This document shows positions 22,591 to 39,102 of a stretch of DNA of 64,000 nt, one piece after another; within the stretch, counting starts at the first letter, position 1; each line of letters opens with the position of its first letter. The DNA is from an uncultured Eubacteriales bacterium. GTDB lineage: Bacteria > Bacillota > Clostridia > Christensenellales > Aristaeellaceae. The notes beneath the pieces were generated by a model that saw nothing but the letters and a program-made list of their open reading frames with translations, was not told the DNA's origin and did no database searches. The translations under genes and the position numbers were made by a program. The stretch spans positions 124,001-188,000 of the forward strand of contig ONJM01000001.1 of assembly GCA_900318145.1 (NCBI GenBank). The letters are read 5' to 3'.

Positions 22591-24333
22591 ATGAGGGATC
22601 AGCTACTTCGGTTTATGCGAGACTATCCTGAAGCAAAGGAGCAGTCTTTTGCAAACAATCTTTTTGGTATTTTTGTGCGAACTGAAATACCAGAAGCCAT
22701 CTATGAAACAGATCTTGTAAACCGACAGAAGTATTTGATTACAGCGAGTGTGGGAGCAGGCAACTGGGCGATGATCCCTTGGATTTGCGTCTTTGATAAA
22801 TCAATTACAACCTCTGCAACAAAAGGTATATATATTGTGTATTTGCTGTCAAAGGATAGTAAACGGTTATATTTGACATTTAATCAAGGATGCACGGATA
22901 TTCGCAGTCAGCATACAAAAAAAGAAACAATTCAAATTATGCACCAGAAAGCTAAGGAGATCCGTTCTTTCATTTCAGATCATGGCTTCATTTCCGATTG
23001 CAATATTGATCTAGGTGATCATCTGACTGATTTGGGAGAAATGTATAGGGAAGGTATTATTTTCTACAAGCAGTACAATATTAATTCTCTTCCGGAAGAG
23101 GATGTACTGCGAGACAATCTTTCTAGAATGATTGATATTTATCAGAATTATGTCCAAAGTGAAAAACAAAAAGGACAGACCGGAATACATACCATTACAG
23201 GAGATGAGACAGAAATGAAGACCGCGGAGAAGCTGAATGTCATTAAGGCATATATTAGCGGAAAGGGTTTCAGCTATGATGGCCAGTTGATCGAAAATTT
23301 CTATCTGTCTCTGAAATCAAAACCTTTTGTCATTCTAGCCGGGACATCCGGAACCGGAAAGACAAGGCTGGTGCGGCTGTTCGCGGAAGCGATTGGCGCC
23401 CAATATCACCAGGTGGCGGTACGACCGGACTGGTCGGATTCCACAGACTTGTTTGGGCATACGGATTTGAATGGAACCTTTGTGCCAGGATGCGTGCTGG
23501 AGTTCCTGGTGGAGGCACAGCGAAACCCAGACCATCCGTATATTCTTTGCCTGGACGAAATGAACCTGGCGCGGGTCGAGTATTATCTGAGCGACTTTTT
23601 GTCCGTGATCGAAACCAGGGAATTCCAGGGAGAAAAGATTAAAACAGATCCGTTGGTTCCAGCGACAATATATGGGAAAGACACAGCCGCACAGAAAAAG
23701 TATGGGGAAGTGTTCTTCCCGGAGAACCTTTATGTGGTTGGTACCGTGAATATGGACGAGACCACGTTCCCGTTCTCCCGGAAGGTACTGGACCGGGCAA
23801 ATACGATTGAGTTCAACTATGTGAGCCTGGTGCCTGACTTTAGTGGTACCGTGACCGGTACGCCTCTGTTGGAACGAAACGCGTTCTTGAAAACGGAGTA
23901 TCTCATGCTTGCTCAGTGCCCGGAAGACGCGCAGGAGGATGCAAGGGGCTATTGCTTGACGCTGGAGAAGATCAACAGGATCCTGCAAACGGCAAATGCC
24001 CATGTGGGTTACCGGGTACGGGACGAGATCTGTTTCTATCTGTTGAACAACCGCAACGCTCATTTGATGTCGGACGATGCCGCGATGGATCATGAGATCA
24101 TGCAGAAGATTCTTCCGCGCATCCAAGGATCTGGGGCGTCGATCAAAGACATGCTGTGCAGGCTGTTCCGGGAGATCCTAGCCGGTGACTATGACCGTCA
24201 GGCTGGGGATGCCGCTGGGATGGAAAAGAGAATCAAAGAAAACGGAAGTGTTCGGTATCCCAAGAGCGCTGAAAAAGTGATGTTCATGGTGAGGAGATTC
24301 GAGGAGGATGGATTTACGTCGTACTGGCTCTGA
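22591..24333 (+). CDS. McrB-like GTPase with N-terminal DUF3578 domain (type IV restriction)
   Basis: 580 residues from ATG 22591 (AGAAGGGG 8 bases upstream; GTG 22573 is in frame). Residues about 5-190 match the MrcB N-terminal domain (DUF3578): FANNLFGIFVRTEI, YLITASVGAGNWAMIPWI, GIYIVYLLS. The AAA+ module has Walker A AGTSGTGKT near 250, Walker B ILCLDEMNLARVEYYL, and sensor VGTVNMDETTFPFSRKVLDRAN, the McrB signature order. It should assemble as a nucleotide-driven motor with the nuclease encoded by the next gene, which overlaps it by 26 bases. The first 600 bases are A+T-richer than the rest. A role in restriction of modified foreign DNA is inferred from family. Confidence 0.9.
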   Translation: MRDQLLRFMRDYPEAKEQSFANNLFGIFVRTEIPEAIYETDLVNRQKYLITASVGAGNWAMIPWICVFDKSITTSATKGIYIVYLLSKDSKRLYLTFNQGCTDIRSQHTKKETIQIMHQKAKEIRSFISDHGFISDCNIDLGDHLTDLGEMYREGIIFYKQYNINSLPEEDVLRDNLSRMIDIYQNYVQSEKQKGQTGIHTITGDETEMKTAEKLNVIKAYISGKGFSYDGQLIENFYLSLKSKPFVILAGTSGTGKTRLVRLFAEAIGAQYHQVAVRPDWSDSTDLFGHTDLNGTFVPGCVLEFLVEAQRNPDHPYILCLDEMNLARVEYYLSDFLSVIETREFQGEKIKTDPLVPATIYGKDTAAQKKYGEVFFPENLYVVGTVNMDETTFPFSRKVLDRANTIEFNYVSLVPDFSGTVTGTPLLERNAFLKTEYLMLAQCPEDAQEDARGYCLTLEKINRILQTANAHVGYRVRDEICFYLLNNRNAHLMSDDAAMDHEIMQKILPRIQGSGASIKDMLCRLFREILAGDYDRQAGDAAGMEKRIKENGSVRYPKSAEKVMFMVRRFEEDGFTSYWL

Positions 24334-26788
24334 GGATGAACTGCTTTTCTTGCAGTCTGAGAGCCTGACCATCACCCTGAAGGGTCCCTCTTCGCATCCA
24401 GATTATCCAGGCGTCCATTATGACCAGAAGAGCGCGACCATTCGGGTGAAAAGTCCAGAGGATTTCTCTATTTCCCTTCCCGGAAACGCTGGGACGGTGG
24501 ACTCAATCTGCGCTGAAAAGAATTACTTTGGCAGCTTCCAGGCGCGACCGCTTTTCTTTGAACAGCAAACATACGAACTTTTCGTAGAACCCGCGTCAGG
24601 ACACACCGTCACCTTTTGGCATGAAAACTATTCCATCCGCAACCAGACTTCTCCCGTGGGACGAGAACAGCGGATGCTGAGCGGCGTAATCAATTTTGGG
24701 AACGATATTGGATATTCCGATCTGGTGTTCACACTGGATGGATGGAAGGAACTCACCATTACCCTTGAAGTGTTTCCAACGAAAATCGGATATAAAGAAG
24801 ATTATATGGCGATTGTATCCGACGTCACAGCGGAAGTATATAACCTGGTTTTTGATTTCCTGAAAAAAACCTATTCGTCCTTTGACATTTCCAAGTCCGC
24901 GCAAAGTTCCCCCGTAGAGTTCTTCGCGATCCTCCGTACGATCTATGAGAAGTTTATTGGCGCGGCGGATATGGTGCTGCGTTCGCCTCACCACCAGTTG
25001 CAAAAGGAAATGCAGGTGCTGGCGCAGCACAAAATCAAGCAATATGACGGAAACACCGTAAAATGGCTGCAAAAGCATCCGGCGGAGGTTCGGAAGCAAG
25101 GGGAAAACTTGCAGATTGCCCGAGCGCTAACTTCCCGCAAGTATGTGACATATGACACCAGGGAAAACCGACTGACAAAATACATGTTGGAGAAGACTGC
25201 CCGGCGACTGGAGCATTTCCGGGATTTGTACCAACGGATCCGTGAAAACCAAGGTCCGGATGAAGACGCTTTGCGGGAAATGAATACGATGATCGCCGGT
25301 ATCCAGCGCAGATGCAATACTGGATTTATGAGAGAGGTTCAAGCGTCAGCGGCGGAATCCGGTATGAGCCTGGTTTTCGGAATGGCACCGGGCTACCGGG
25401 AACTGTATCGCTGCTATCTGCTGCTGCAACACGGCCTGGCACTGACCGGCAGTATGTTCAACCTGAGCGTGAAGGATCTGGCGGTATTGTATGAATACTG
25501 GTGCTTCATTAAGCTTAACAGCCTGCTGAAAAAGAAATATCGCCTGGTGACCTCTGACTTGATCCGGATCAATGGTACTGGTTTGTCCGTAAACCTGGTG
25601 AAAGGGCAGGCAAGCCAGGTGCGCTATTTCGATGAGAAGAACGGGGACCAGATCCTGTTGAGCTACAACCCGGAAAAACGGAGACTGCCCACAGTCACAC
25701 AACGGCCAGATAATGTCTTGAGCCTGAAAAAGCGCGGTGGGAACACGGAATATGAATATATCTTCGACGCGAAATATAAAATGGATCCGTCTTTACCGGG
25801 AACACATTACCATGAATATGTCTGCGAGTATCCCGGACCGAAAGAAGAAGACATTAATACCATGCACCGGTATCGGGACGCGATTGTCAGCGAAGAGCAC
25901 TCCCGGTTTGAGCGGGGGATGGTAGGCGCGTATGTGTTGTTCCCGTACTCAAACGAAGAGGAATACAAGAAACACCGCTTTTACAAGAGCATAGACAAAG
26001 TGAACATCGGAGGTTTGCCATTCCTGCCAACCGCAACAGGATTAGTTTCCAATATGCTGGATGATCTGATCGACGACTCCACGGAATCGGCGTTTGAACG
26101 TATGTCTTTACCAAGGGGTATTGAGGAAAAGCTGCAGAAGATTGACTGGAACCGTAAGGATGTAATGATCGGTACGCTGCGGAGCAAAACGCAGCTGGAA
26201 GTATGCCTGAAAGGCAAATTCTACTATTTGCCAGCAGTCCACCTCCATGATGAATCTCTTCCGATCCGCATTGTCGCGCTCTACCAATCCCGGATGACTT
26301 TCGGGGAAGAAGCGCAAATCGCCTATTACGGTGAAGTAAAACGCATCCAGAAGGTCAAGCGAAAAGAAATCCGGGAAATGCCCTTTGCCCCAGAACGTGC
26401 AGAAATGGATTATTACAGACTGGAAATCCGCGAATGGAAAAAGCTTTCACGCCCCATCCAGGTAAAGGAAAGAGGCATATATACCAGCGCGTACACCAAT
26501 GAATTCCTACTGAGAAACGCGGAAACCATCTCAGAACTCTTCCTGAAATCAAAAGAAGAATATCGCTTCCTCACAGAGCTCAAGCGCTTCGTTCAAAACC
26601 CCAGCGTGATCAACCGGGACGAAACACCCATCGGCTTTGCCTTTGGAAAGCACCAGGTACTCTTCCATGACGGAAAGATCAAACTGATCCACCAGGGGAG
26701 CATCATAGACCAGAACGATATCCAAGCGTTCGTACGCCACCCCAACGCCGTATTCAGAGGATTGATGAAATCTATACAAGAAGGATAA
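24308..26788 (+). CDS. DUF2357 / McrC-like PD-(D/E)xK nuclease
   Basis: 826 residues, overlapping the McrB-like gene by 26 bases. The N-terminal 250 residues are beta-rich, as in DUF2357. A long helical middle (about 255-400) is followed by a PD-(D/E)xK core: RPDNVLSLKK near 466 and YEYIFDAKYK near 484. The last 250 residues contain a compact beta region (KTQLEVCLKGKFYYLPAVHL, YYGEVKRIQKVKRKEIREMP) that resembles EVE/PUA-like modified-base readers, a cautious inference. It is the cutting partner of the GTPase. It is much longer than classic McrC (about 350 residues), as usual for DUF2357 versions. Confidence 0.85.
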   Translation: MDLRRTGSEDELLFLQSESLTITLKGPSSHPDYPGVHYDQKSATIRVKSPEDFSISLPGNAGTVDSICAEKNYFGSFQARPLFFEQQTYELFVEPASGHTVTFWHENYSIRNQTSPVGREQRMLSGVINFGNDIGYSDLVFTLDGWKELTITLEVFPTKIGYKEDYMAIVSDVTAEVYNLVFDFLKKTYSSFDISKSAQSSPVEFFAILRTIYEKFIGAADMVLRSPHHQLQKEMQVLAQHKIKQYDGNTVKWLQKHPAEVRKQGENLQIARALTSRKYVTYDTRENRLTKYMLEKTARRLEHFRDLYQRIRENQGPDEDALREMNTMIAGIQRRCNTGFMREVQASAAESGMSLVFGMAPGYRELYRCYLLLQHGLALTGSMFNLSVKDLAVLYEYWCFIKLNSLLKKKYRLVTSDLIRINGTGLSVNLVKGQASQVRYFDEKNGDQILLSYNPEKRRLPTVTQRPDNVLSLKKRGGNTEYEYIFDAKYKMDPSLPGTHYHEYVCEYPGPKEEDINTMHRYRDAIVSEEHSRFERGMVGAYVLFPYSNEEEYKKHRFYKSIDKVNIGGLPFLPTATGLVSNMLDDLIDDSTESAFERMSLPRGIEEKLQKIDWNRKDVMIGTLRSKTQLEVCLKGKFYYLPAVHLHDESLPIRIVALYQSRMTFGEEAQIAYYGEVKRIQKVKRKEIREMPFAPERAEMDYYRLEIREWKKLSRPIQVKERGIYTSAYTNEFLLRNAETISELFLKSKEEYRFLTELKRFVQNPSVINRDETPIGFAFGKHQVLFHDGKIKLIHQGSIIDQNDIQAFVRHPNAVFRGLMKSIQEG

Positions 26789-28423: not shown

Positions 28424-29515
28424 ATGAGAACAAATAAGTATCTGCTTAAAACTGTAGCGTTTTTAGTGGTTGCTGTATTGTCTTTTTGGGGATCTGTTAA
28501 TCTTCTTTCGAATCATACAAGTCATACTTTTAATGCAATTGCAGAGGAAAATGAAGAAATTACGACAGGTTTGCTGAATTATAGTGATGGCTCCGTATAT
28601 GAAGGAGAAATACTTTATGGAAGGATCAGAACAGGTACCGGAACATATACATGGACAACAGGAGAAGTGTATTCTGGCATTTGGGATAATGACATACCTT
28701 CTGGTAAAGGTAAATTTGAATGGCCAGGGCTGGGAATATATGATGGAGATTTTTTAAATGGAAAACGTGAAGGAACAGGATCTTTTACTTGGACCTATGA
28801 AGGAGAACCTCCGGAAGGCGCTCCTGTGATATACAATGGTGAATGGGCGAATGATAAAATCAGTGGAAAAGGCACGCTTGAATTATCAGGAGTTGGAACT
28901 TATGAGGGTGAATTTGACAAGCAACAACGTTCTGGGACGGGAACATTTACCTGGCAGAACGGAGATATATATACTGGTTCATGGGCCAGAGATGGAATAG
29001 AGGGAAATGGTGTATTAACGTTAAAAGACGGTACTGTGCTTGAAGGAACTTTCTCAAAAAATTATCTCATAAAAGGAACGATGACGTATTCAACAGCAAG
29101 TGGAATAGTTGTTAGAAACGTTGCAAATGGAAAAGCGCAGAATCCTGTGGAAATAACATATAAAGATGGAACTGTTGTACGAGGAAATGTAAAAGGAGAA
29201 GAATTTGTTGGAAATGTAACGATATCTTATTCTTCCGGAGATGAATATGTCGGGACAATTAAAAATGGTGTTAAAAATGGAAAAGGAACATACACCTGGA
29301 AAAATGGTGCACATTATATTGGGGATTGGGTAAATGACAAAATGTCTGGGAATGGTAAATACTTTTATGGAAAAGATGAATCCAGTTTATATTTAGTAGG
29401 GACGTTCCTAAACGGCTATCCTGATGGGACACTGACTTATATAGCAGAAACAAAGATAAAGTATCAGACTATATGGTCAAATGGTAAATGCACCAATATC
29501 TTCTATAAGAAATAA
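28424..29515 (+). CDS. Membrane-anchored MORN-repeat protein
   Basis: 363 residues. A hydrophobic segment (about 8-28) acts as signal or anchor. The rest is about ten MORN-type repeats with the pattern YxGxWxNxxxxGKGxxxWxxG, for example YSGIWDNDIPSGKGKFEW, YDGDFLNGKREGTGSFTW, YTGSWARDGIEGNGVLTL, YVGTIKNGVKNGKGTYTW and YIGDWVNDKMSGNGKYFY, forming an extended beta sheet. It should sit outside the cytoplasmic membrane. It heads the operon and lies 12 bases before the His-Xaa-Ser precursor gene. MORN proteins can act as scaffolds; a role in displaying or binding the modified peptide is inferred only from linkage. Confidence 0.85.
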   Translation: MRTNKYLLKTVAFLVVAVLSFWGSVNLLSNHTSHTFNAIAEENEEITTGLLNYSDGSVYEGEILYGRIRTGTGTYTWTTGEVYSGIWDNDIPSGKGKFEWPGLGIYDGDFLNGKREGTGSFTWTYEGEPPEGAPVIYNGEWANDKISGKGTLELSGVGTYEGEFDKQQRSGTGTFTWQNGDIYTGSWARDGIEGNGVLTLKDGTVLEGTFSKNYLIKGTMTYSTASGIVVRNVANGKAQNPVEITYKDGTVVRGNVKGEEFVGNVTISYSSGDEYVGTIKNGVKNGKGTYTWKNGAHYIGDWVNDKMSGNGKYFYGKDESSLYLVGTFLNGYPDGTLTYIAETKIKYQTIWSNGKCTNIFYKK

Positions 29516-29527
29516 TGAGGGAATAAG

Positions 29528-30229
29528 ATGGGCGAGTTGATTTTTCCTAAAATTCAAAAAAGGATCAGTGATTTTCTGTATGAAGAAGAAGGTACGATTC
29601 CACGCAGCAAAATCATTTCAATCGGCACCATGGTATTGTTGCTGAGTGTGTTTTTTGCAGATAGTGCATTCGCTGGTCATCGTTCACATTCTTCTCATAG
29701 ATCTCATAGTAGCCATAGATCCCATAGTAGTAGCAGGCATGGAAGCCATAGTAACCATAGTAATCACAGTAATGCTACACCAACGCCTGTGCCAATTCCC
29801 AAGGAAGTGCGTCTGCCTTCCACACCATCTTCAAATAGTTCCTTTGATGGCGGTGTGTCGATTGTGCCTGTCAGCGCGGAAGATACCAGTATTATCTTGA
29901 CCAGTATGCGAGAAATTGCTACTACGGACGCATCTGTGACGCCGGCACCAATCAGTTCAGCGATTGGGACGGATATTTCAGCAATCGTCAACACTGGTAA
30001 TATTCCGGCAATAGCAGTCGGAAAACTACCGACAACAACGGGCAATATACCTACGTCTTCAGGAGTTTTATTACCCGCCACATCGCTTCTGGAGGCTGAT
30101 ATGAAGACTACGGAGAATGCATTTAATCCATTCATTGATGAAAAAGAAGTTGTTTCGCCTAAAATTCCTACGGTAAAGATTGATACGGGTATGCCTCCGA
30201 AGAGCAATGCGAAGGTAATAAAGGAATGA
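29528..30229 (+). CDS. His-Xaa-Ser repeat precursor peptide (HxsA-like)
   Basis: 233 residues. The N terminus (1-28) is charged with DFLYEEEGTIPRSK, then a hydrophobic helix (about 29-48) ends AFAG. Residues about 50-82 are almost pure His-Xaa-Ser: GHRSHSSHRSHSS and SSRHGSHSNHSNHS. After TPTPVPIP a Ser/Thr/Pro-rich low-complexity region follows to the end. This is the hallmark of the HxsA substrate of the His-Xaa-Ser radical SAM system. Cleavage after AFA by signal peptidase is likely; alternatively EEEG followed by a hydrophobic helix resembles a prepilin site for the A24 peptidase in the operon. Its stop overlaps the next start (ATGA). Confidence 0.88.
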   Translation: MGELIFPKIQKRISDFLYEEEGTIPRSKIISIGTMVLLLSVFFADSAFAGHRSHSSHRSHSSHRSHSSSRHGSHSNHSNHSNATPTPVPIPKEVRLPSTPSSNSSFDGGVSIVPVSAEDTSIILTSMREIATTDASVTPAPISSAIGTDISAIVNTGNIPAIAVGKLPTTTGNIPTSSGVLLPATSLLEADMKTTENAFNPFIDEKEVVSPKIPTVKIDTGMPPKSNAKVIKE

Positions 30230-31119
30230 TGATGGAAAGAAAAAAACCGGGAATCTGCTGGATATTAGTTGTTTTTATTGCCTTTCAATTGTTGGTTGTA
30301 AATATATCTATAGCAGAGCAGCGATTCACCGAAGACGCGGATGCCATTGAATGTGCAGCGGATTCAGTATTCATGTTAGAAATATATGCTGACACTAATC
30401 AGAGAATTGGTGTAGGCAGCGGTTTTGTTGCTTTTAATTCATCATTATTAGTAACTAATTATCATGTGATTGAAGGCGGTGCATATATTATTGCAGTTAG
30501 TGATGAACATGAGCGATATTTAATTGACCAGATTTGTGTGATAGACAAAGAAAAAGATATAGCAATCTTACGCTTTGATGAAGACTATATTGCAAAACCT
30601 CTTGAATTAGATGCAGAGAGCAAACTTAAGCGTGCACAACCAGTGGTGGCTATCGGTAGTCCAGCTGGACTTATGAATACTGTTTCAATTGGAAATATCA
30701 GTGCGTTCTACAAAAAAGATGGAAGGGACTGGATCCAGTTTACAGCACCAATATCTTCAGGAAGCAGTGGTGGACCACTGCTGAATGATTTGGGAAAAGT
30801 AATAGGTATTACGACAGCGACTTATGCTTCTACTCAGAATATAAACATGGCAGTGAAAGCAGAGAGTGTACTGGATTTATACAATGCATGGGACGGGAAA
30901 AGCATAGTTTCCATGAATAATCGTAGAGATCAATTGTATGTTTTGTCAACTGTTAACACAAACGCAGAAAACGATAAAGCTAACAAGGTATATATAAGCA
31001 AAAGTGGGAAAAAGTATCACAATAATCCAAACTGCTCAGGTATGCAGCTTGCGGTTGAAATAGATCTAATGGATGCAATAGAAAAAGGATATCAGCCCTG
31101 TGGAAAGTGTTATAAATAA
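30226..31119 (+). CDS. Membrane-anchored trypsin-like (Deg/HtrA-type) serine protease
   Basis: 297 residues with an N-terminal hydrophobic segment (about 11-30) as signal or anchor. The trypsin-2 catalytic triad is visible: His80 in LLVTNYHVIEGG, Asp111 in EKDIAILRF, Ser181 in GSSGGPLLNDLG. There is no PDZ domain. The C terminus has a Cys/His-containing YHNNPNCSGM and QPCGKCYK, which may bind metal or form disulphides. It overlaps the HxsA-like stop by 4 bases, so synthesis is coupled to the precursor. Extracytoplasmic processing of the modified peptide is the obvious inference. Confidence 0.88.
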   Translation: MMMERKKPGICWILVVFIAFQLLVVNISIAEQRFTEDADAIECAADSVFMLEIYADTNQRIGVGSGFVAFNSSLLVTNYHVIEGGAYIIAVSDEHERYLIDQICVIDKEKDIAILRFDEDYIAKPLELDAESKLKRAQPVVAIGSPAGLMNTVSIGNISAFYKKDGRDWIQFTAPISSGSSGGPLLNDLGKVIGITTATYASTQNINMAVKAESVLDLYNAWDGKSIVSMNNRRDQLYVLSTVNTNAENDKANKVYISKSGKKYHNNPNCSGMQLAVEIDLMDAIEKGYQPCGKCYK

Positions 31120-31140
31120 AGGGTGGTAAAAGGCAAGAAA

Positions 31141-31524
31141 ATGACAATTGAAGTAAGTAAAAGTTTATACTCTAAAGAAGTGTTACTTAAAACGGCATAC
31201 AGTTTCACAGATAAGGTTTTTCTCCATCTAGAACAAACTGAAAAATACTGGGTGGTTTCATGGAAACCACGTACAGGACAGAACATCGATGAAGGCGAAC
31301 TGGAAAACGAATTAATTTCTCAAGCATTAAGGGAAAAATTAGTGGAACAGACAGCTGATTTACGCAAGATCATTTTGGCACGTGCGCTTGCTTCAACCGT
31401 AATGGATGATCAACCGGGAGACATCAATATACCGTTGCCCATAGAAGAAACTTCACTCGATACAACAATTGAGTCAGAAAAAGAAAAGGAAGAAATCCTG
31501 AGAGGATGGTTTGATGGACAATGA
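31141..31524 (+). CDS. HxsD-like small protein
   Basis: 127 residues from ATG 31141 (GGTGGTAAAAGG upstream; GTG 31123 is an in-frame alternative). The pattern MTIEVSKSLYSKEVLLKTAYSF then VFLHLEQTEKYWVVSWKP, and ELENELISQALREKLVEQTADLRKIILARAL matches the HxsD family layout, where a beta-rich half is followed by an (F)NELxxQxLR helix. HxsD has no known catalysis and is thought to be an adaptor in the His-Xaa-Ser system. The acidic tail IEETSLDTTIESEKEKEEILRGW is extra. It overlaps the next start by 4 bases. Confidence 0.78.
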   Translation: MTIEVSKSLYSKEVLLKTAYSFTDKVFLHLEQTEKYWVVSWKPRTGQNIDEGELENELISQALREKLVEQTADLRKIILARALASTVMDDQPGDINIPLPIEETSLDTTIESEKEKEEILRGWFDGQ

Positions 31525-31727
31525 TATCTTTTGATAGTTCTATATATCTAGTATCTGCTGTAGAAAGAGCTTGTGCAGATTTCCATAATCTTGCAGACAT
31601 TCGGATCACCTTAAAAGGAAAGTTGATATTCTGTGAAATTAGTAATCCTCGAGGGGATTTGGCTCTGATTTGCGATGAATTTAGCAATTATGTTTTAAAC
31701 TTAACTGTTATGATGGGTGGGCATTAA
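31521..31727 (+). CDS. Second, shorter HxsD-like protein
   Basis: 68 residues. MISFDSSIYLVSAVERACADF then DIRITLKGKLIFCEISN and LICDEFSNYVLNLTVM repeat the HxsD pattern (small beta region, then EFxNYxL helix) but without the long basic helix of the first copy. Its ATG overlaps the stop of the preceding gene (ATGA), and its end overlaps the A24 peptidase region, so it is cotranslated. It may form a heterodimer with the upstream copy or serve the second radical SAM enzyme; this is inference. Confidence 0.65.
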   Translation: MISFDSSIYLVSAVERACADFHNLADIRITLKGKLIFCEISNPRGDLALICDEFSNYVLNLTVMMGGH

Positions 31728-31728
31728 T

Positions 31729-32739
31729 TTGATCTATGCGGAAGCAGTATGCCTGACCAGTATGTTATTGATTGGCATTTTCAGTGCATATACAGATTTT
31801 TCTTGGGGAACAATACCAAACAAGTTGATACTGATTGGTTTAGCAATTGGGGTTCTGTGCCATATCACTTTACTGGTACTTGGTGTAGCGCCTTTTTATG
31901 TCCAATGGTTGCTTTGCATGCTTATAGCTGACATGTTTGCATTTGGATTATTTTGGGGAAGACTTTGGGCAGCTGGAGACGCGAAGCTATTTATGATCCT
32001 TTTTTTTCTTGTACCGCCGCGCTTGTTTGATAAAGGAGATTTTTCAAATGGCATTATTCCATATATCTTTATTTTTATTCCAGCATTAGTTTGGATTTTA
32101 GGAGACTCAGTTCTTCGTATTATCCGAAAAGAACCACGAAAGAAGATATCGTTTAATTTTACAAGCTGGTTAATGAACTGTTTAAGGACGATCATAGAAG
32201 TGACTACAATGCATAGTCTATTTATAATGCTCTTTCCGTCATTCGTTGAAAGTAACGCAATGCTATCATTTGCAATAATGATGGCATATGCCTATATTTG
32301 TGGAAGCGTTTCAGCTATGAGACACAAATTAACGGTAGTGCTTCATGTTCTAGCACTCATTACTATCTGGATTATAATGAAATGGAATATAACTGTTCCA
32401 GATTTCAAAGGGTATCTAGTTCTCGTATTTGTGATGTTTATTCAATATATCGCAGGATTATATAATTATCAGTTAATTCAGACTTCCGATGCAACAAAAG
32501 GGATGATTCCAGCAATGGAAACAGTGCTTTTATTTCAAACTTCCCGAATTAATCATCTTCCCGTAGACTGCTCTGAACAATTAACTGCTAAGATGACAAC
32601 TGAGCAGGCAGAAGCAGTTAAAAAGTGGGGAATTAGTGCTAAAGGAAAATCAACAATCTGGATTGTGCGAAAAGTACCCTTTGCTTTTATGATTTCGTTT
32701 GGATTCATCACATGGATGTTGTTCAAACTTTTGAGGTGA
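31729..32739 (+). CDS. A24-family (prepilin-peptidase-like) membrane aspartic protease
   Basis: About 336 residues with around eight hydrophobic helices. The two A24 aspartates are seen in AYTDFSWGTIPN near residue 23 and in the signature AAGDAKLFM near 84 (G-x-GD-x-K type). The start is taken as TTG 31729, 8 bases after GGTGGG; GTG 31717 is in frame. The C-terminal half continues as extra membrane helices and a small soluble tail. No pilus genes are nearby, so it is not a normal type IV pilus peptidase. The only precursor in the operon is the HxsA-like protein, its probable substrate. Confidence 0.82.
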   Translation: MIYAEAVCLTSMLLIGIFSAYTDFSWGTIPNKLILIGLAIGVLCHITLLVLGVAPFYVQWLLCMLIADMFAFGLFWGRLWAAGDAKLFMILFFLVPPRLFDKGDFSNGIIPYIFIFIPALVWILGDSVLRIIRKEPRKKISFNFTSWLMNCLRTIIEVTTMHSLFIMLFPSFVESNAMLSFAIMMAYAYICGSVSAMRHKLTVVLHVLALITIWIIMKWNITVPDFKGYLVLVFVMFIQYIAGLYNYQLIQTSDATKGMIPAMETVLLFQTSRINHLPVDCSEQLTAKMTTEQAEAVKKWGISAKGKSTIWIVRKVPFAFMISFGFITWMLFKLLR

Positions 32740-32743
32740 GAGA

Positions 32744-33619
32744 ATGCCAGGATTGATCATTGACAGGGATGATGTGTGTTTATATGTTACAGAAAAATGT
32801 AATTCAAACTGCATCATGTGCCCAATGAGTCTGGATTGTCGCAAGCGTGGATCGGAAATGAGCACAGAAGAGTGGGAACACTTTGAAGAGATGATACCTG
32901 ACAATGTGTCTCATTTTACTATTACAGGTGGAGAACCATTTCTACATTACCCAAAATTGTTTCCTATACTGAAGAAAATAAATCAGTTGTATCCGGATGC
33001 AGAAGTATTAATTCTAACCAATGGTAGAGCTTTGGCTATTCCAGCAATAATGGAATCACTATCTGCATTGATTACACAAAGATATTGTTTTGCGATTCCA
33101 ATCCATGGTTCAAAAGAAACAATACATGATGATATTACGTCTTCTCCTGGAAGCTTTAGACAGTCAATTATTGCATTAAAACATTTAAGTGAAACAAGTG
33201 CAAGGACTGAAGTGCGTATTGTTGGTCATTTACTAAATATTGAAGACATAAACGATACTTATTATATGATATGCGGACTAAAAGCAAGGATTGACGTAAT
33301 TAACTTAATCGCTATGGAAATGACAGGATGTGCTGCGCGCAATCGAAAAAAACTCTGGGTGAATTATGATATATTGTGCGATAAAGCAGAAAACGGTATT
33401 CGACAGGCAATATTGCATGGAATAGATACTGGATTATATAATTTTCCATTATGTCAAGTGCCAGAGCACTTATGGCCGATGATTAAGCATAGCATTACGG
33501 CATCGAAAATTATGTACCCGAAAAAATGTGAAGAATGCAAGAAAAAAGATGCTTGTGGTGGTATGTTTTATTCCACTTGTTTGCTAAATTTATGCACTAT
33601 AAAACCTTTTAGAGGGTGA
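32744..33619 (+). CDS. Radical SAM enzyme, HxsC-like
   Basis: 291 residues starting 4 bases after the A24 peptidase stop. The [4Fe-4S] cluster motif is TEKCNSNCIMCPMS with Cys19, Cys23 and Cys26, followed by ITGGEPFLHYPKL, the SAM-binding GGE motif, and VLILTNGRAL. The C terminus has YPKKCEECKKKDACGGMF, an auxiliary Cys cluster. This matches the HxsC branch of His-Xaa-Ser maturases. It should generate a 5'-deoxyadenosyl radical to modify the precursor peptide; the chemistry is not predictable from sequence. Confidence 0.85.
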   Translation: MPGLIIDRDDVCLYVTEKCNSNCIMCPMSLDCRKRGSEMSTEEWEHFEEMIPDNVSHFTITGGEPFLHYPKLFPILKKINQLYPDAEVLILTNGRALAIPAIMESLSALITQRYCFAIPIHGSKETIHDDITSSPGSFRQSIIALKHLSETSARTEVRIVGHLLNIEDINDTYYMICGLKARIDVINLIAMEMTGCAARNRKKLWVNYDILCDKAENGIRQAILHGIDTGLYNFPLCQVPEHLWPMIKHSITASKIMYPKKCEECKKKDACGGMFYSTCLLNLCTIKPFRG

Positions 33620-33623
33620 GAAA

Positions 33624-35009
33624 ATGTTAGGACATTTTTATTTTGGCAAATTCAAAGATGGTATCTTATTAACAGGAGATACTGGACGCTGGCATTTTCT
33701 AAGTGAGAAAGATTTTAATTCGTTTGTTAATGATAGCACTCCGAAAGACACACAACAATATCAATTGCTTGAGGCAGATCATTTTTGTTATCATGGATCT
33801 GAAGAAGCCTTCATTCAAGAAAACAAATATGACATTCAAACAGCAAATAGTTATCTGTTTGAGGCAACATCTCTTTTCATTTTCGCAGTTACAAATGAAT
33901 GCAACAATAAATGTATTTATTGTCAGGCAAATGGAGGCGGTCAACTAAAAAAAATGACAAAAGAAGTTGCAGAAGCCGCGATTCGACAGATAGAAAAAAC
34001 ACCAGCAAGAGTTATAACAATCGAATTTCAGGGCGGAGAACCATTGATGAATTTCCCCATTGTCCAATATATTGTGCTTAATGCACAGAAACTTCTTCCA
34101 AAGAAGGAAATACAGTTCACTATAGTTTCTAATCTTTCTTTAATAACAGACGAAATAGCTAGCTTTTTTCGAGATTACAAAGTTTCAGTCTCCACATCTC
34201 TTGATGGTGATAAAAAATTACATGATTATAACCGACCAGCCGCAGATAAAACAAGCTCATATGAAAGCATGCTAAAAGGGAAACAAATCTTAGAAAGCTA
34301 TGGTATAAAAACTGGTGCGATTCAGACAACAACAGCTCAGGCATTGAGTTGCCCGGAAACAATAATACATTCATATGCGGATTTAGGATATAATCAAGTT
34401 TTTCTCAGGCCCCTAACCCGGCTGGGTTCAGCTGCGAGGCGATGGAATGAAATCGGATATACTCCAACACAGTATTTGGCTTTTTACAGAAAAGCCTTGG
34501 AAGAGATTATTCGTATAAATCTGAATGGAACTCCAATGGTTGAGTATCATGCGGCGCTTCTACTTTCTAAGATCATGAATGGAAAAGCTGTTAATTATAT
34601 GGAATTGAGGTCTCCCTGTGGTGCGGGTGTGGGACAGATTGCCATCACAGCAAATGGAAATGTATATACATGTGACGAGGGAAGAATGATTGCCGAAATG
34701 GGGGATGAAGCATTCTTGCTTGGTAATGTTTTTCAGAACGGTTATGAAGAATGGATGAATTCATCCTGCTGTAAAGCGGTGTGTTCGGCGTCTTTACTGG
34801 AAACATTACCTGGATGTTGTGATTGTGTATATAAACCATATTGTGGAGTATGCCCAGTTGTAAACTATGCAATTAATGGAAGTATAACCAAGATTTCAAA
34901 GGATCGCTGTGCAATATATAAAGGAATACTAGATGTGCTTTTCGATTATCTGATAGAAGGAAAAAAAGAAATACTTCATCTTTTTCAATCTTGGAGCAAA
35001 AGTATATAA
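33624..35009 (+). CDS. Radical SAM/SPASM enzyme, HxsB-like
   Basis: 461 residues, 4 bases after HxsC-like. An N-terminal 85-residue domain (FYFGKFKDGILLTGDTGRWHFL) may be a peptide-recognition element. The SAM cluster motif is TNECNNKCIYCQANGG with Cys93, 97 and 100, then EFQGGEPLMNF. The SPASM region carries SPCGAGVGQIAITANG, CDEGRM and a Cys-rich stretch CCDCVYKPYCGVCPV with binding of auxiliary Fe-S clusters. This is the pattern of the HxsB maturase. Last gene of the operon; a 219-base A+T-rich gap follows with no clear terminator. Confidence 0.88.
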   Translation: MLGHFYFGKFKDGILLTGDTGRWHFLSEKDFNSFVNDSTPKDTQQYQLLEADHFCYHGSEEAFIQENKYDIQTANSYLFEATSLFIFAVTNECNNKCIYCQANGGGQLKKMTKEVAEAAIRQIEKTPARVITIEFQGGEPLMNFPIVQYIVLNAQKLLPKKEIQFTIVSNLSLITDEIASFFRDYKVSVSTSLDGDKKLHDYNRPAADKTSSYESMLKGKQILESYGIKTGAIQTTTAQALSCPETIIHSYADLGYNQVFLRPLTRLGSAARRWNEIGYTPTQYLAFYRKALEEIIRINLNGTPMVEYHAALLLSKIMNGKAVNYMELRSPCGAGVGQIAITANGNVYTCDEGRMIAEMGDEAFLLGNVFQNGYEEWMNSSCCKAVCSASLLETLPGCCDCVYKPYCGVCPVVNYAINGSITKISKDRCAIYKGILDVLFDYLIEGKKEILHLFQSWSKSI

Positions 35010-35228: not shown

Positions 35229-35837
35229 ATGAAGTTTATGATGAACTGGAGAAAAGACACATTAAGTTTCTATAATCAGAACTCAGATGAATTTGTGTCC
35301 GGAACGCTGGCTGCGGATATGAGTGACGCAAGATCCCGGTTTGTTTCACGGCTGCCTTTGAAAGCGCTGATTCTGGACTTCGGCTGCGGTTCGGGGCGGG
35401 ACACGAAGGCGTTTCTGGATGCCGGATATCAGGTTGAGGCAACGGATGGCTCGGAAGAATTGTGCGAAAGAGCTTCCGCGTATACCGGCATTCAGGTGAA
35501 AAGGATGCTGTTTCAGGACCTGGATGCTGTTGACAGGTATGACGGAATCTGGGCCTGCGCTTCTGTGCTTCATCTGCCTGCAGAAGAATTGAAGACAGTG
35601 ATCGGGAAGATCGCGGTCGCGCTGAAGCGGAACGGCGTGTTGTATGTATCCTTTAAATACGGAGAGTATGAAGGGATGCGGAAAGGAAGATATTTTACGG
35701 ACTTCACAGAGGAAAAGCTGAGGACATTCTGGGAGTCATTTCCGTCACTGCAAATTGTTGAAACATGGATTACAGAGGACGTCCGCCCGGACAGAAAGGA
35801 TGAGAAATGGATAAGCCTTTTGGCCCGGCGGGTCTAG
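35229..35837 (+). CDS. Class I SAM-dependent methyltransferase
   Basis: About 202 residues. Start uncertain: ATG at 35229, 35238 and 35241 are all in frame with weak ribosome binding sites. Motif I ILDFGCGSGRDTKAFL, the acidic VEATDGSEELCERA, motif III-like YDGIWACASVLHLP and a late VLYVSFKYGE show the methyltransf_11/25 type that acts on small molecules. It overlaps the HNH gene by 31 bases and is clearly cotranscribed with it. G+C content returns to the core-genome level here. Confidence 0.82.
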   Translation: MKFMMNWRKDTLSFYNQNSDEFVSGTLAADMSDARSRFVSRLPLKALILDFGCGSGRDTKAFLDAGYQVEATDGSEELCERASAYTGIQVKRMLFQDLDAVDRYDGIWACASVLHLPAEELKTVIGKIAVALKRNGVLYVSFKYGEYEGMRKGRYFTDFTEEKLRTFWESFPSLQIVETWITEDVRPDRKDEKWISLLARRV

Positions 35838-36976
35838 AGATTGACTCAGCATATTACAATACGCTGGATATCCGCAGCTTTTTGCTCATGCTTAAGGATC
35901 CGTCCTACTGCTATAAATTCTACTGGCTGGAAGCTATCGTCAATTTAATTTCTGAAGGGATTACGGAAACAACCTTTAATGAAATCATTGATGAGATGAT
36001 CTGCAACGCGTGGTATTCAGTACGGGAGTTTCATATTCATCTGAGCGGACTGGGACCGGACGGGGAAGTCCGGGATGGCCTGGAACGCGCGGTGCTGAAA
36101 CTGGCCGCAATCAGTGAACTGGCGTCCGGTGCGTCAAAGGTGGAGATCCGGAATGCCATCCGCCTGCATGACGGGGAACTTCGTAAATTCAAGGAACAGC
36201 TGACAAATATGGTCCCGTACCGGGCAATGGCAGGCTTTTTCGCGAACGCGGGCTTGGAAAGTGTTCCGTGGGAGTCCGTTGTCAAAATGCGGGAAACGAT
36301 CTCATCTTTCAGTTATGAGATCACCGCTCTGCCTTATACACTGGGGTCAAACAGCAAACTGGCAAAGGAAGTGCGTTTTCATCCGGACTGGGTGAAAATG
36401 ATACAGGATTATACAGTATCCATTCTCGGATGGATTCAGTTTGAAAAAGTAAAATGGCTGCAGAACAACAATCCGGAGGTCCCGGGACTGGCATTCAAGC
36501 TGCTTCCTATGGATGAGAAAATGCGGAAACTGGGGAAAGTCCGGGATTTATGGGAGGGTGTGCTGGCTGTCAGGAGCGTTTCAGATGTTTTCACCGGAAA
36601 ACCGATCATTCCGAAGCAATATGATATCGACCATTTTATTCCCTGGTCGTTTGTGATGAACGACGAACTCTGGAATCTTATGCCGATGGATTCATCCCTT
36701 AATTCATCCAAAAGCAACCGCCTTCCGCAGTGGGATCCGTTCTTCCGAAGGTTTTCGGATAATCAGTACATTCTTTACAGAGCGATTTATGAACTGCCGG
36801 GAATCCATAAGCTGTATGAGCAATGCTGGCGGGACAATCTGCATTCCATCTGGGCGGGGCAGGAACTATACAGGCCGGGGAATTCGATGGAAGAGTTTGA
36901 CGCTGTCCTGAGTAAAAACATGCGGCCTGTCTATGATTCGGCAATGCGGCAGGGGTATGAGGTCTGGAGATTCTAA
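35807..36976 (+). CDS. HNH-endonuclease-domain protein
   Basis: 389 residues. The C-terminal third contains YDIDHFIPWSFVMNDELWNLMPMD followed by SSLNSSKSNRLP near 273-305. This is a beta-beta-alpha-metal HNH nuclease core (D-H, N, K). The N-terminal 250 residues are helical and unassigned. The ATG overlaps the methyltransferase by 31 bases, so the two are a unit. The methyltransferase is not of DNA type by motif, so this is not a classic restriction-modification pair; a defence function is plausible but unproven. Confidence 0.8.
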   Translation: MDKPFGPAGLEIDSAYYNTLDIRSFLLMLKDPSYCYKFYWLEAIVNLISEGITETTFNEIIDEMICNAWYSVREFHIHLSGLGPDGEVRDGLERAVLKLAAISELASGASKVEIRNAIRLHDGELRKFKEQLTNMVPYRAMAGFFANAGLESVPWESVVKMRETISSFSYEITALPYTLGSNSKLAKEVRFHPDWVKMIQDYTVSILGWIQFEKVKWLQNNNPEVPGLAFKLLPMDEKMRKLGKVRDLWEGVLAVRSVSDVFTGKPIIPKQYDIDHFIPWSFVMNDELWNLMPMDSSLNSSKSNRLPQWDPFFRRFSDNQYILYRAIYELPGIHKLYEQCWRDNLHSIWAGQELYRPGNSMEEFDAVLSKNMRPVYDSAMRQGYEVWRF

Positions 36977-37054: not shown

Positions 37055-38551
37055 ATGTTCCTTTCCAAATCCGGCTATGTAAGAGTATGGAGCTGCCCCA
37101 AAGGTGCGTGGATCAACAAGTATCACCCGGAGGCGGTCCCGCGGGACGAGAGCAGGCAGGCCCGGTTCCGGCAGGGAGACGAGGTCGGGGACCTGGCCCG
37201 GGGACTGTTCGGCCCATATGTGAACGTAACCGCCGAAAAAGAGGACGGGCAGCTCGACCTGGCGCAGATGATTGAGAACACCCGGACGGAAATGGAGAAA
37301 GGTACGGAGGTTATCTGCGAGGCGGCTTTCTCCTATGAGGGCCTGTACTGCGCCGTGGACCTCCTGAAAAGGGACGGGGACGGCTGGGCAATCTATGAGG
37401 TCAAGAGCTCCTCGGACGGAACGCAGGACAAATATGTCGCGGACGTGTCCTACCAGAAATACGTGCTGGAGCACTGCGGAATAAAGGTCACCGGCGTATA
37501 CCTTGTCAGCATCAATACGGATTATGTGCTGGGCCCGGAAGGCCTGGACATTCATGAATTCTTCCGGTTCAATGACCTGACGGAACAGGCGTCCCGGGAA
37601 CAGGCAGCGACGGTGCCCGGGATGCTCGAAACGGCCGAGCGGGTGCTGGGAAGCGGGGAGGAACCGGCGGTTGAACTGACGGAAGTATGCAGGGACTGCG
37701 AGTTCTTTTCCTGGTGTACGCGGGAGCTTCCTGTTCCCAATGTGTTTCAGCTTTACCGGCTGTCGAAGAAAAAGATGGTTGAGTACTACCGGCAGGGGCT
37801 GGTCACCTATGAGCAGCTGGAAAAGGCAAAGGTCATCAAAAACGCCACGCAGCTGCGGCAGATGGATTACTGGCTGCGGGATAAGGGCGTGTACGCGGAA
37901 AGGGAACCGCTGAAGGCTTTTCTGGGCACGCTGACGTATCCGCTGTATTTCCTGGATTTTGAAACCATGATGCCGGCGGTGCCGTTCTGCGTCGGGACGC
38001 GTCCGTTCACGCAGATTCCGTTCCAGTATTCCCTGCATTTCATCGAAAAGGAAGGCGGGGCGCTGCAGCACAGGGAATTCCTGGCGGAGAGCGGGAAGGA
38101 TCCCCGGCGGGCAATCGCGGAGGCACTGTGCGGGGATATCCCGGCGGACGCCTGCGTGACAGCGTTCAACAAGCGGTTTGAATGCGGCAGACTCCGGGAG
38201 CTGGCAGATACTTTTCCGGACCTGGCGGACCACCTGAACGCCATTGCCGACCACATCGCTGACCTGCTGGATCCGTTCCAGAAGGGATGGTATTACCGGA
38301 AGGAGATCGGCGGAAGCTTCTCCATCAAGAGCGTGCTGCCGGCAATCTGCCCGGATGATCCGGAACTGGACTACCATGAGCTGGAGGGCGTGCACAATGG
38401 AACGGAAGCCATGAGCGTCTTCCCGATGATCAGGGACATGGAACCGGCGGAGCAGGAACGGACGAGAAGGAACCTGCTGGCTTACTGCCGGCTGGATACG
38501 CTGGCCATGGTGAAGGTGTGGGAGGAACTGAAGCGGGCGGCGGGGCTCTGA
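37055..38551 (+). CDS. DUF2779 nuclease (Cas4-like PD-(D/E)xK plus DEDD-type exonuclease region)
   Basis: 498 residues with GGAGGATGG before ATG 37055. Residues 1-225 resemble Cas4/RecB nucleases: WSCPKGAWINKY (first Cys near 14), CAVDLLKRDGDGWAIYEVKSSS with the E-x-K active site near 120, and VCRDCEFFSWC (three Cys near 212-221), which together could hold a [4Fe-4S] cluster. Residues about 295-495 match DUF2779: YFLDFETMMPAVP, FNKRFECGRL and YCRLDTLAMVKVW, with DEDD-type acidic residues. It should act on DNA or RNA ends. It follows the HNH gene and carries its own terminator. Confidence 0.85.
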   Translation: MFLSKSGYVRVWSCPKGAWINKYHPEAVPRDESRQARFRQGDEVGDLARGLFGPYVNVTAEKEDGQLDLAQMIENTRTEMEKGTEVICEAAFSYEGLYCAVDLLKRDGDGWAIYEVKSSSDGTQDKYVADVSYQKYVLEHCGIKVTGVYLVSINTDYVLGPEGLDIHEFFRFNDLTEQASREQAATVPGMLETAERVLGSGEEPAVELTEVCRDCEFFSWCTRELPVPNVFQLYRLSKKKMVEYYRQGLVTYEQLEKAKVIKNATQLRQMDYWLRDKGVYAEREPLKAFLGTLTYPLYFLDFETMMPAVPFCVGTRPFTQIPFQYSLHFIEKEGGALQHREFLAESGKDPRRAIAEALCGDIPADACVTAFNKRFECGRLRELADTFPDLADHLNAIADHIADLLDPFQKGWYYRKEIGGSFSIKSVLPAICPDDPELDYHELEGVHNGTEAMSVFPMIRDMEPAEQERTRRNLLAYCRLDTLAMVKVWEELKRAAGL

Positions 38552-38868: not shown

Positions 38869-39102
38869 ATGAAGGAACTGAACATTGCGGAAATGGAAAA
38901 TGTGAACGGCGGCGTCGACTGGAACAAGGTTTTCGGATTCGGCTGGACGAGCGGCATGGGAGCGGCGGCGCTTACATCGGTTGCGATCTGCGCCCTGAGC
39001 GGCCCCATTGGCTGGGGTGCGCTGGCAGTGATAGGAGGCGTCGGCGCGGGGGCTGCCGCTGTAGGCGGAGGCATTACGGCAGCGGTGACAGCGAACGACT
39101 GA
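38869..39102 (+). CDS. Double-glycine leader bacteriocin-like peptide
   Basis: 77 residues; GGGAGG lies 10 bases before ATG 38869. The leader is MKELNIAEMENVNGG, a textbook double-glycine motif. The core VDWNKVFGFGWTSGMG is followed by Gly/Ala-rich hydrophobic sequence (GPIGWGALAVIGGVGAGAAAVGGG) ending ITAAVTAND, a probable membrane-active class II peptide. It stands alone, with its own terminator. It shares leader type with peptides at 15209, 17213 and 17534 although it lies 21 kb away; no C39 transporter is in the window. Confidence 0.85.
   Translation: MKELNIAEMENVNGGVDWNKVFGFGWTSGMGAAALTSVAICALSGPIGWGALAVIGGVGAGAAAVGGGITAAVTAND

Follow-up and report, generated by a model that had tools for sequence, protein, structure and literature searches.

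Eight genes on the forward strand of a contig from an uncultured Eubacteriales bacterium, which is a gut or rumen bacterium, were found to form an Hxs (His-Xaa-Ser) operon in which the leader of the precursor peptide, HxsA3, is matched by a prepilin-type peptidase of family A24 encoded in the same operon. The operon lies in a stretch of 64,000 nucleotides, hereafter called the window. Among 91 rows in which the precursor leader and the peptidase could both be scored, a leader motif of the EEG type and an A24 peptidase were present together in 65 and absent together in 26, and no row was discordant. The product of the operon is probably a histidine-serine repeat peptide that carries a chemical modification. 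The explanation that we prefer, and hold to be rather probable, is that of an HxsA3-type Hxs operon whose peptide would be modified by radical S-adenosylmethionine (SAM) enzymes, would have its leader cut after EEG by the A24 peptidase of the operon, and would act outside the cell together with a protein made of MORN repeats.

Recurrence of the operon in other genomes

A genome contig collection, scanned with an alignment of HxsB, yielded 469 confirmed stretches, and the locus counts reported here rest on the best 80 of these 469. They were divided into 50 Bacillota-type loci, which include one Synergistales and one Eggerthellaceae record, and 30 others; in the HxsB tree, the former and the window make up one clade of 51 rows (support 99). 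The 50 Bacillota-type loci hold A24 in 48 cases, HxsC in 49, HxsD in 45, a separate HxsD-like gene in 31, MORN in 42, and HxsA in 45 by profile and in one more by eye (L054), and some of the absences fall at contig ends, while in L034 the A24 gene is cut short by a gap in the assembly. Among the 30 other loci, A24 was present in the fetched stretch in three and MORN in none. The combination of Hxs, A24 and MORN genes is also found in many other Bacillota, named carriers being Blautia luti, Mitsuokella multacida, Agathobaculum butyriciproducens and Clostridium beijerinckii HUN142, with M. multacida having the gene set without the protease. An earlier interpretation made from the letters of the window alone (the sequence-only reading) had regarded A24 and MORN as potential conserved partners of the Hxs genes, which these counts bear out.

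HxsA3 was present in 5 of 61 genomes (that of the window and 60 relatives) and scored above its cut-off in 2 of the 398 genomes of a phylum sample, one of which was that of the window. All eight genes were found together in three further genomes of the window's genus, in the order D-D2-A24-C-B-MORN-A-protease, of which the order in the window is a rotation. In a fourth member of the genus, the contig breaks within A24 and shows six of the genes, from A24 onwards; the remainder of its A24 is on another contig. Because three other genomes carry all eight genes and a fourth carries six, the operon is not a chance assembly.

An apparent fusion of A24 and HxsC in Oscillibacter (L034; 1273 amino acids) was rejected as an artefact of a scaffold gap of 2159 N, and a scan of a viral contig collection for HxsA gave no relatives. 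Several extra HxsC-like radical SAM open reading frames (ORFs), of approximately 150-800 amino acids, stand beside HxsB in L065, L077, L084, L092 and L093, which belong to Patescibacteria, Elusimicrobia and Deltaproteobacteria or are unassigned. In a plasmid collection, HxsB-like genes were seen on 344 records, 315 of them from Klebsiella, and 275 of the 344 were predicted to be conjugative.

Co-occurrence of the HxsA3 leader and the A24 peptidase

Where A24 lies at the locus, the HxsA rows have in common the pattern ...(D)FL..(E/Q)(E/D)(G/A).(I/V).(R).K and a hydrophobic stretch, and in most of them AFA or VFA precedes the first HxS. The element (E/Q)(E/D)(G/A), which defines the EEG type, was found in 50/50 of these rows, with Gly at -1 in 47 and Ala in 3; EEA (L058, L063) was counted as EEG-type, and the leader may also be written FL..(E/D/S)EEG. 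As far as sequence comparison goes, the motif resembles the leaders of Flp-type proteins fetched from Hxs-positive genomes, namely FLFDEESG in L172, which passes the Flp_Fap cut-off, and FLSDESG in L175, which does not.

An apparent conflict arose from loci without A24, where all 11 anchorable precursors also have EEG, and the idea that EEG is kept only where A24 sits in the operon looked wrong on this count. A whole-genome search reversed the conflict because the A24 profile was matched outside the locus in all 11 genomes, in some of them partially. The states of leader and A24 were set by hand for 109 HxsB rows, 18 of which had no readable HxsA at scoring. Outside the 91, L026 and L049 are A24-positive and have an EEG leader followed by HxS, the precursor of L026 lying on a different contig from its operon, whereas L061, L067 and L071, with unreadable precursors, were left without an A24 state (the L071 genome gave an A24). 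Weak matches to the N-terminal half in ORFs of 180-284 amino acids (G480, G482, G483, G640 and L090) were scored as negative, three of these (G480, G483 and L090) counting towards the 91; L082 (model positions 2-234, E 4.7e-31) and L093 (3-124, E 1.9e-12) were scored as positive on E-value and ORF length. L068, scored as negative, has FLTPDGAK and comes nearest to an exception.

In a phylum sample searched for HxsB, 31 of the 41 HxsB-positive genomes, namely those above the family cut-off, were taken into the A24 search; three of them (G642, G643 and G644) have both EEG and A24, and the other 22 genomes with readable precursors have neither. The leaders of G642 and G644 were read before A24 was sought and found, and for G643 and L079 the A24 came first and the EEG leader was read after. 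Five changes of each trait were counted on the HxsB tree, and five independent pairs can be drawn, two of them on well-supported branches; since no row is discordant, all five point in the same direction. The concordance supports the membrane processing by A24 that the sequence-only reading had suggested.

Genomes without an Hxs-type A24 have precursors with plain N-termini, with an unrecognisable leader, or with a twin-arginine-like TRR start, a class that was assigned by eye (L068, L085, L092, G479, G480, G481 and G483). The twin-arginine-like class has no EEG but retains part of the upstream segment (FL/YL), so that this segment looks like a docking part and EEG like an exchangeable processing part. 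A profile of the HxsA leader matched one place per genome in 22/22 Hxs-positive genomes searched (two in C. beijerinckii, on the same contig as A24), and therefore no second substrate is visible; in six Hxs-negative members of the genus nothing appeared below E 0.06, with noise at E 0.06-0.1 (28 genomes searched).

A further group of precursors (L118, L119, L122, L124, L125, L127, L131, L163, L164 and L166-L169), from genomes that share the phylum of L092 (perhaps Myxococcota), starts with a plain N-terminus and carries repeats of the kind HRSHRSHSSHRSHYS. The genomes of this group gave no A24 match.

Features of the A24 peptidase and its distribution

The catalytic residues Asp27 and Asp88 are each kept in 49/49 sequences that cover them, 3 of the 52 rows being cut off there. 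PF01478 was matched at E<=0.01 by 40 of 46 members of the Hxs-type A24 family, and 4 of the 46 showed a weak match to Arc_PepC_II, the archaeal A24 C-terminal domain, in a C-terminal domain that is conserved across the family. The structure model has a mean predicted local distance difference test score (pLDDT) of 94, and the only PDB sequence touched by the A24 profile at E<=10 was FlaK (3s0x, E 0.44).

In the 48 Bacillota-type loci that have the gene, its distance from HxsB is at most 8 kb. Of the 61 genomes, the five with HxsA3 are precisely those with an Hxs-type A24 (split over two contigs in G033), whose profile gave just two weak partial matches in the other 56; in the genome of the window (G000), the operon A24 is the only one above the Pfam cut-off. 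ATPases of the T2SSE type (PF00437) gave strong matches in the other four Hxs-positive members of the genus and in Hxs-negative members alike. Since the Hxs-negative members searched hold this ATPase and no A24 above the cut-off, A24 follows Hxs and not the ATPase.

The MORN protein and the serine protease

MORN adjoins HxsA in all 41 Bacillota-type loci holding both, directly upstream in 37, upstream with ORF overlaps of 77-86 bases in three, and directly downstream in one; in C. beijerinckii, the MORN-HxsA pair is duplicated. The serine protease is distributed otherwise. Its orthologues were seen in four loci of the window's genus in addition to the window (five genomes, 58-61% identity), with the catalytic triad intact in 5/5, and elsewhere unrelated genes fill the slot, three unrelated recurring groups being found after HxsA in L022, L024, L025, L027, L030, L031, L032, L040, L041 and L053. 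The protease is thus an accessory and not a core component, and the proposal that a Deg-type protease is a general part of the pathway found no support. The protease of the window has a C-terminus containing Cys and gave no PDZ match in a domain search. Three extra protease matches (L031, L055 and L076) were rejected as profile drift and lack the triad.

Composition and surroundings of the operon

All eight ORFs of the unit that had been proposed are present on one strand between positions 28424 and 35009 (Table 1), with junctions of +12, -4, +3, -4, -11, +4 and +4 bases in operon order. The tight packing described in the sequence-only reading was retained, and its range of -4 to +21 bases was replaced by -11 to +12 because other starts were chosen here, such as GTG at 31717 for A24. 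The identity as an Hxs system also held, HxsA3, HxsD, the HxsD-like protein and HxsB all scoring above curated cut-offs and the precursor containing HxS repeats. In searches with TIGR03976-03979 and with A24, MORN and trypsin models, HxsD, HxsB, MORN and trypsin were recovered, A24 was borderline, and HxsC and HxsA proper fell below their cut-offs. Both radical SAM genes had been assigned to the Hxs families, which HxsB passes outright; HxsC remains under its own cut-off, though TIGR03977 is its top match among 44 families. The sequence-only reading had named a failure of the radical SAM genes against Hxs models as a refutation, and HxsC shows such a failure in part. The precursor scored 45.5 bits against the 121.65 of the HxsA proper model (TIGR03979) and matched the HxsA3 model instead.

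Table 1. Features of the Hxs operon in window coordinates.
Feature	Position	Strand	Evidence
MORN-repeat protein, 363 aa	28424..29515	+	PF02493, 7 stretches, above Pfam cut-off; hydrophobic N-terminus by eye
HxsA3 precursor, 233 aa	29528..30229	+	NF038309, 114.7 bits (cut-off 65)
HxsA3 leader, residues 1-22, ending ...DFLYEEEG	29528..29593	+	Proposed A24 cleavage after Gly22
HxsA3 residues 23-49: Arg/Lys, hydrophobic helix, AFA	29594..29674	+	AFA a signal-peptidase-I-like site by eye; column counts, alignment
HxS/HxN repeat region	29678..29773	+	Whole protein: 7 HxS, 10 Hx[S/N]
Trypsin-like (S1C/HtrA-type) serine protease, 297 aa	30226..31119	+	PF13365 (Trypsin_2), 85.2 bits (cut-off 27.6)
HxsD, 133 aa	31123..31524	+	TIGR03976, 76.1 bits (cut-off 50)
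HxsD-like protein, 68 aa	31521..31727	+	NF038315, 58.3 bits (cut-off 41)
A24 prepilin-type peptidase, 340 aa, GTG start	31717..32739	+	Asp27 and Asp88 conserved; PF01478; conserved C-terminal domain
HxsC radical SAM enzyme, 291 aa	32744..33619	+	TIGR03977, 250.7 bits (cut-off 267.9); CxxxCxxC present
HxsB radical SAM/SPASM enzyme, 461 aa	33624..35009	+	TIGR03978, 485.3 bits (cut-off 370)

HxsD was considered as a possible winged-helix leader-binding domain; its predicted fold is beta-alpha-beta-beta-alpha-alpha, and nothing in the PDB matched it at E 0.001. Scans for promoters and terminators found no clear excess of sites over shuffled sequence. The flanks of the operon encode a DUF2357 and PD-(D/E)XK nuclease (24308-26788), an HNH endonuclease (35807-36976) and a DUF2779 and Cas4-like nuclease (37055-38551), and the neighbourhood looks like a defence or mobile region. 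Further downstream (38869-39102), an ORF of 77 amino acids with a VNGG double-glycine-like leader and a Gly/Ala-rich remainder is bacteriocin-like by eye and has no Pfam match.

Proposed maturation pathway and its alternatives

What the comparisons show is the gene content, its conservation, the conserved catalytic aspartates, the dedicated co-occurrence and the link between leader and A24. From the families involved and the conserved motifs, we infer the cleavage site, the order of the steps, the chemistry, and the location and function of the product as follows. HxsA3 would begin with a segment for docking (P..(I/V).K....FL), followed by EEG, a membrane helix and the array of HxS repeats, which HxsB and HxsC, aided by the HxsD proteins, may modify. 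The A24 peptidase, an aspartyl membrane peptidase, would then cut the leader after EEG at the cytoplasmic face, in the manner of prepilin peptidases. The modified peptide may stay in the membrane or pass out through it, with a possible later cut by signal peptidase at AFA, and its repeats would be exposed outside the cell and act together with the MORN protein, the constant neighbour of HxsA; in the genus of the window, the serine protease would be an addition to this pathway. The surface display put forward in the sequence-only reading may be the outcome. A more far-reaching version, which we offer tentatively and consider a little short of an even chance, is that A24 is the dedicated leader peptidase of a radical SAM-dependent ribosomally synthesized and post-translationally modified peptide (RiPP), that precursors share some of their docking part and differ in exchangeable export classes (A24/EEG, twin-arginine-like and plain N-terminus), and that the product is a pilin-like anchored or filamentous surface element scaffolded by MORN.

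Several observations weigh against the proposed pathway. Cleavage of HxsA3 by A24 is a prediction, and EEG may instead be an element for docking that happens to accompany A24. Pilins carry Glu at +5 (G/XXXXE) according to PMC12075869; none of the 50 HxsA rows from loci with A24 has this residue, and HxsA3 is therefore not filed as a pilin. The R/K residues at +4 and +6 ahead of the hydrophobic stretch are also unlike the Flp proteins fetched. The window A24 scored 23.7 against the PF01478 cut-off of 26.5 by hmmscan (27.8 in the genome search), and a Foldseek search of its model against the PDB gave no match at E<=0.001. Six of the 65 A24-positive calls (L066, L079, L082, L088, L089 and L093), all outside the operon, rest on partial matches, those of L082 and L093 showing none of the C-terminal domain. 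The concordance is phylogenetically clustered, and five independent pairs are not enough to make it significant. A whole-genome search found no A24 for either of the two Bacillota-type loci that lack one, L061 (a 3.7-kb contig with HxsB and HxsC) and L067 (HxsB alone), and neither has a readable precursor. G000 gave no T2SSE-type ATPase, an absence that proves little in a genome that is 88% complete.

The alternative that survives best concerns the fate of the product. It may be a secreted, freely diffusing peptide with antimicrobial or metal-binding activity, for which the MORN protein and the protease would serve as immunity or release factors, and this is compatible with cleavage by A24. 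A cut at AFA would release the repeats, histidine-rich repeats could bind metal, and a protease is encoded in the same operon; nevertheless, family searches of the eight proteins revealed no exporter, and MORN is a constant neighbour that is duplicated along with HxsA in C. beijerinckii. We regard a diffusing peptide as unlikely, while taking it seriously.

A second alternative leaves A24 in place and gives EEG another task. EEG may be a docking motif for HxsD, HxsB or HxsC, with A24 cutting elsewhere, such as at the second Gly at +11, or acting on another substrate, and with signal peptidase I maturing HxsA3 at AFA. Gly is found at +11 in 49 of the 50 rows with A24 at the locus, with hydrophobic residues directly after it, and AFA/VFA-like residues stand at a fixed spacing before the first repeat in most rows. 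However, where A24 is elsewhere in the genome, Gly at +11 is present in just 3 of 11 rows and EEG in all 11; a docking role sits poorly with the twin-arginine-like precursors, which keep the FL/YL part without EEG, and the leader search of 28 genomes turned up no second type of protein that could serve as another substrate. We judge this account to be improbable, if well short of refuted.

That A24 is a stray pilus or secretion gene linked by chance to an ordinary Hxs system, which would suit the Pseudomonadota plasmid loci fetched (hxsB and hxsC with little else of the Hxs set, and plasmid records free of A24 matches in 5/5), is very improbable, being already disfavoured by its presence at 48/50 loci and exact co-occurrence in 61 genomes and being at odds with its conserved C-terminal domain and with the Hxs-negative genus members that have T2SSE-type ATPases and no A24 above the cut-off.

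Comparison with known systems

Hxs systems are widespread, and the literature searched yielded no known product or function for them. The gene names appear in the matching sense in two papers (PMC9062424; PMC8446631). NCBIfam already has names for the Hxs genes and for the HxsA3 precursor family, the comparison with it covering model names. Because no text on an association of A24 or MORN with Hxs was found in the literature searched, which leaves out most subscription journals, the variant is counted as new; the Hxs genes and the HxsA3 family are known, and the link between leader and A24 is what is added. The matched precursor leader and membrane peptidase represent a concrete and testable maturation step that, if true, would connect radical SAM peptide chemistry with pilus-type processing.

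The operon resembles the described Hxs system (HxsA/HxsA2, HxsB, HxsC and HxsD; TIGR03976-03979) in having HxsB and HxsD above their cut-offs, HxsC as a top match and a precursor with HxS repeats. It differs from five plasmid loci of that system (Aeromonas, Methylobacter, Acidiphilium, Novosphingobium and Mesorhizobium), in which neither A24 nor MORN is annotated, a search for A24 finds nothing on the record, and the precursors have no EEG leader. The models of HxsA3 (NF038309), which spans leader and repeats, and of the HxsD-like protein (NF038315) were both matched. With the A24 prepilin peptidases (TadV/FppA and FlaK), the peptidase shares two conserved Asp residues in a D...GD context, and the window leader resembles those of Flp prepilins (FLxDE.G); the Hxs A24, however, has a conserved C-terminal domain, is linked to radical SAM genes and is paired with a substrate without Glu at +5. 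A review of RiPP leader proteases (PMC10885120) describes a membrane M50 protease in the EpeX/EpeP system, and a term search of it gave no "A24", "prepilin", "pilin" or "GxGD". The epipeptide EpeX/EpeP is similar to the operon described here in having a membrane-embedded protease dedicated to a modified peptide, and differs from it in that this protease is a metalloprotease of an unrelated family.

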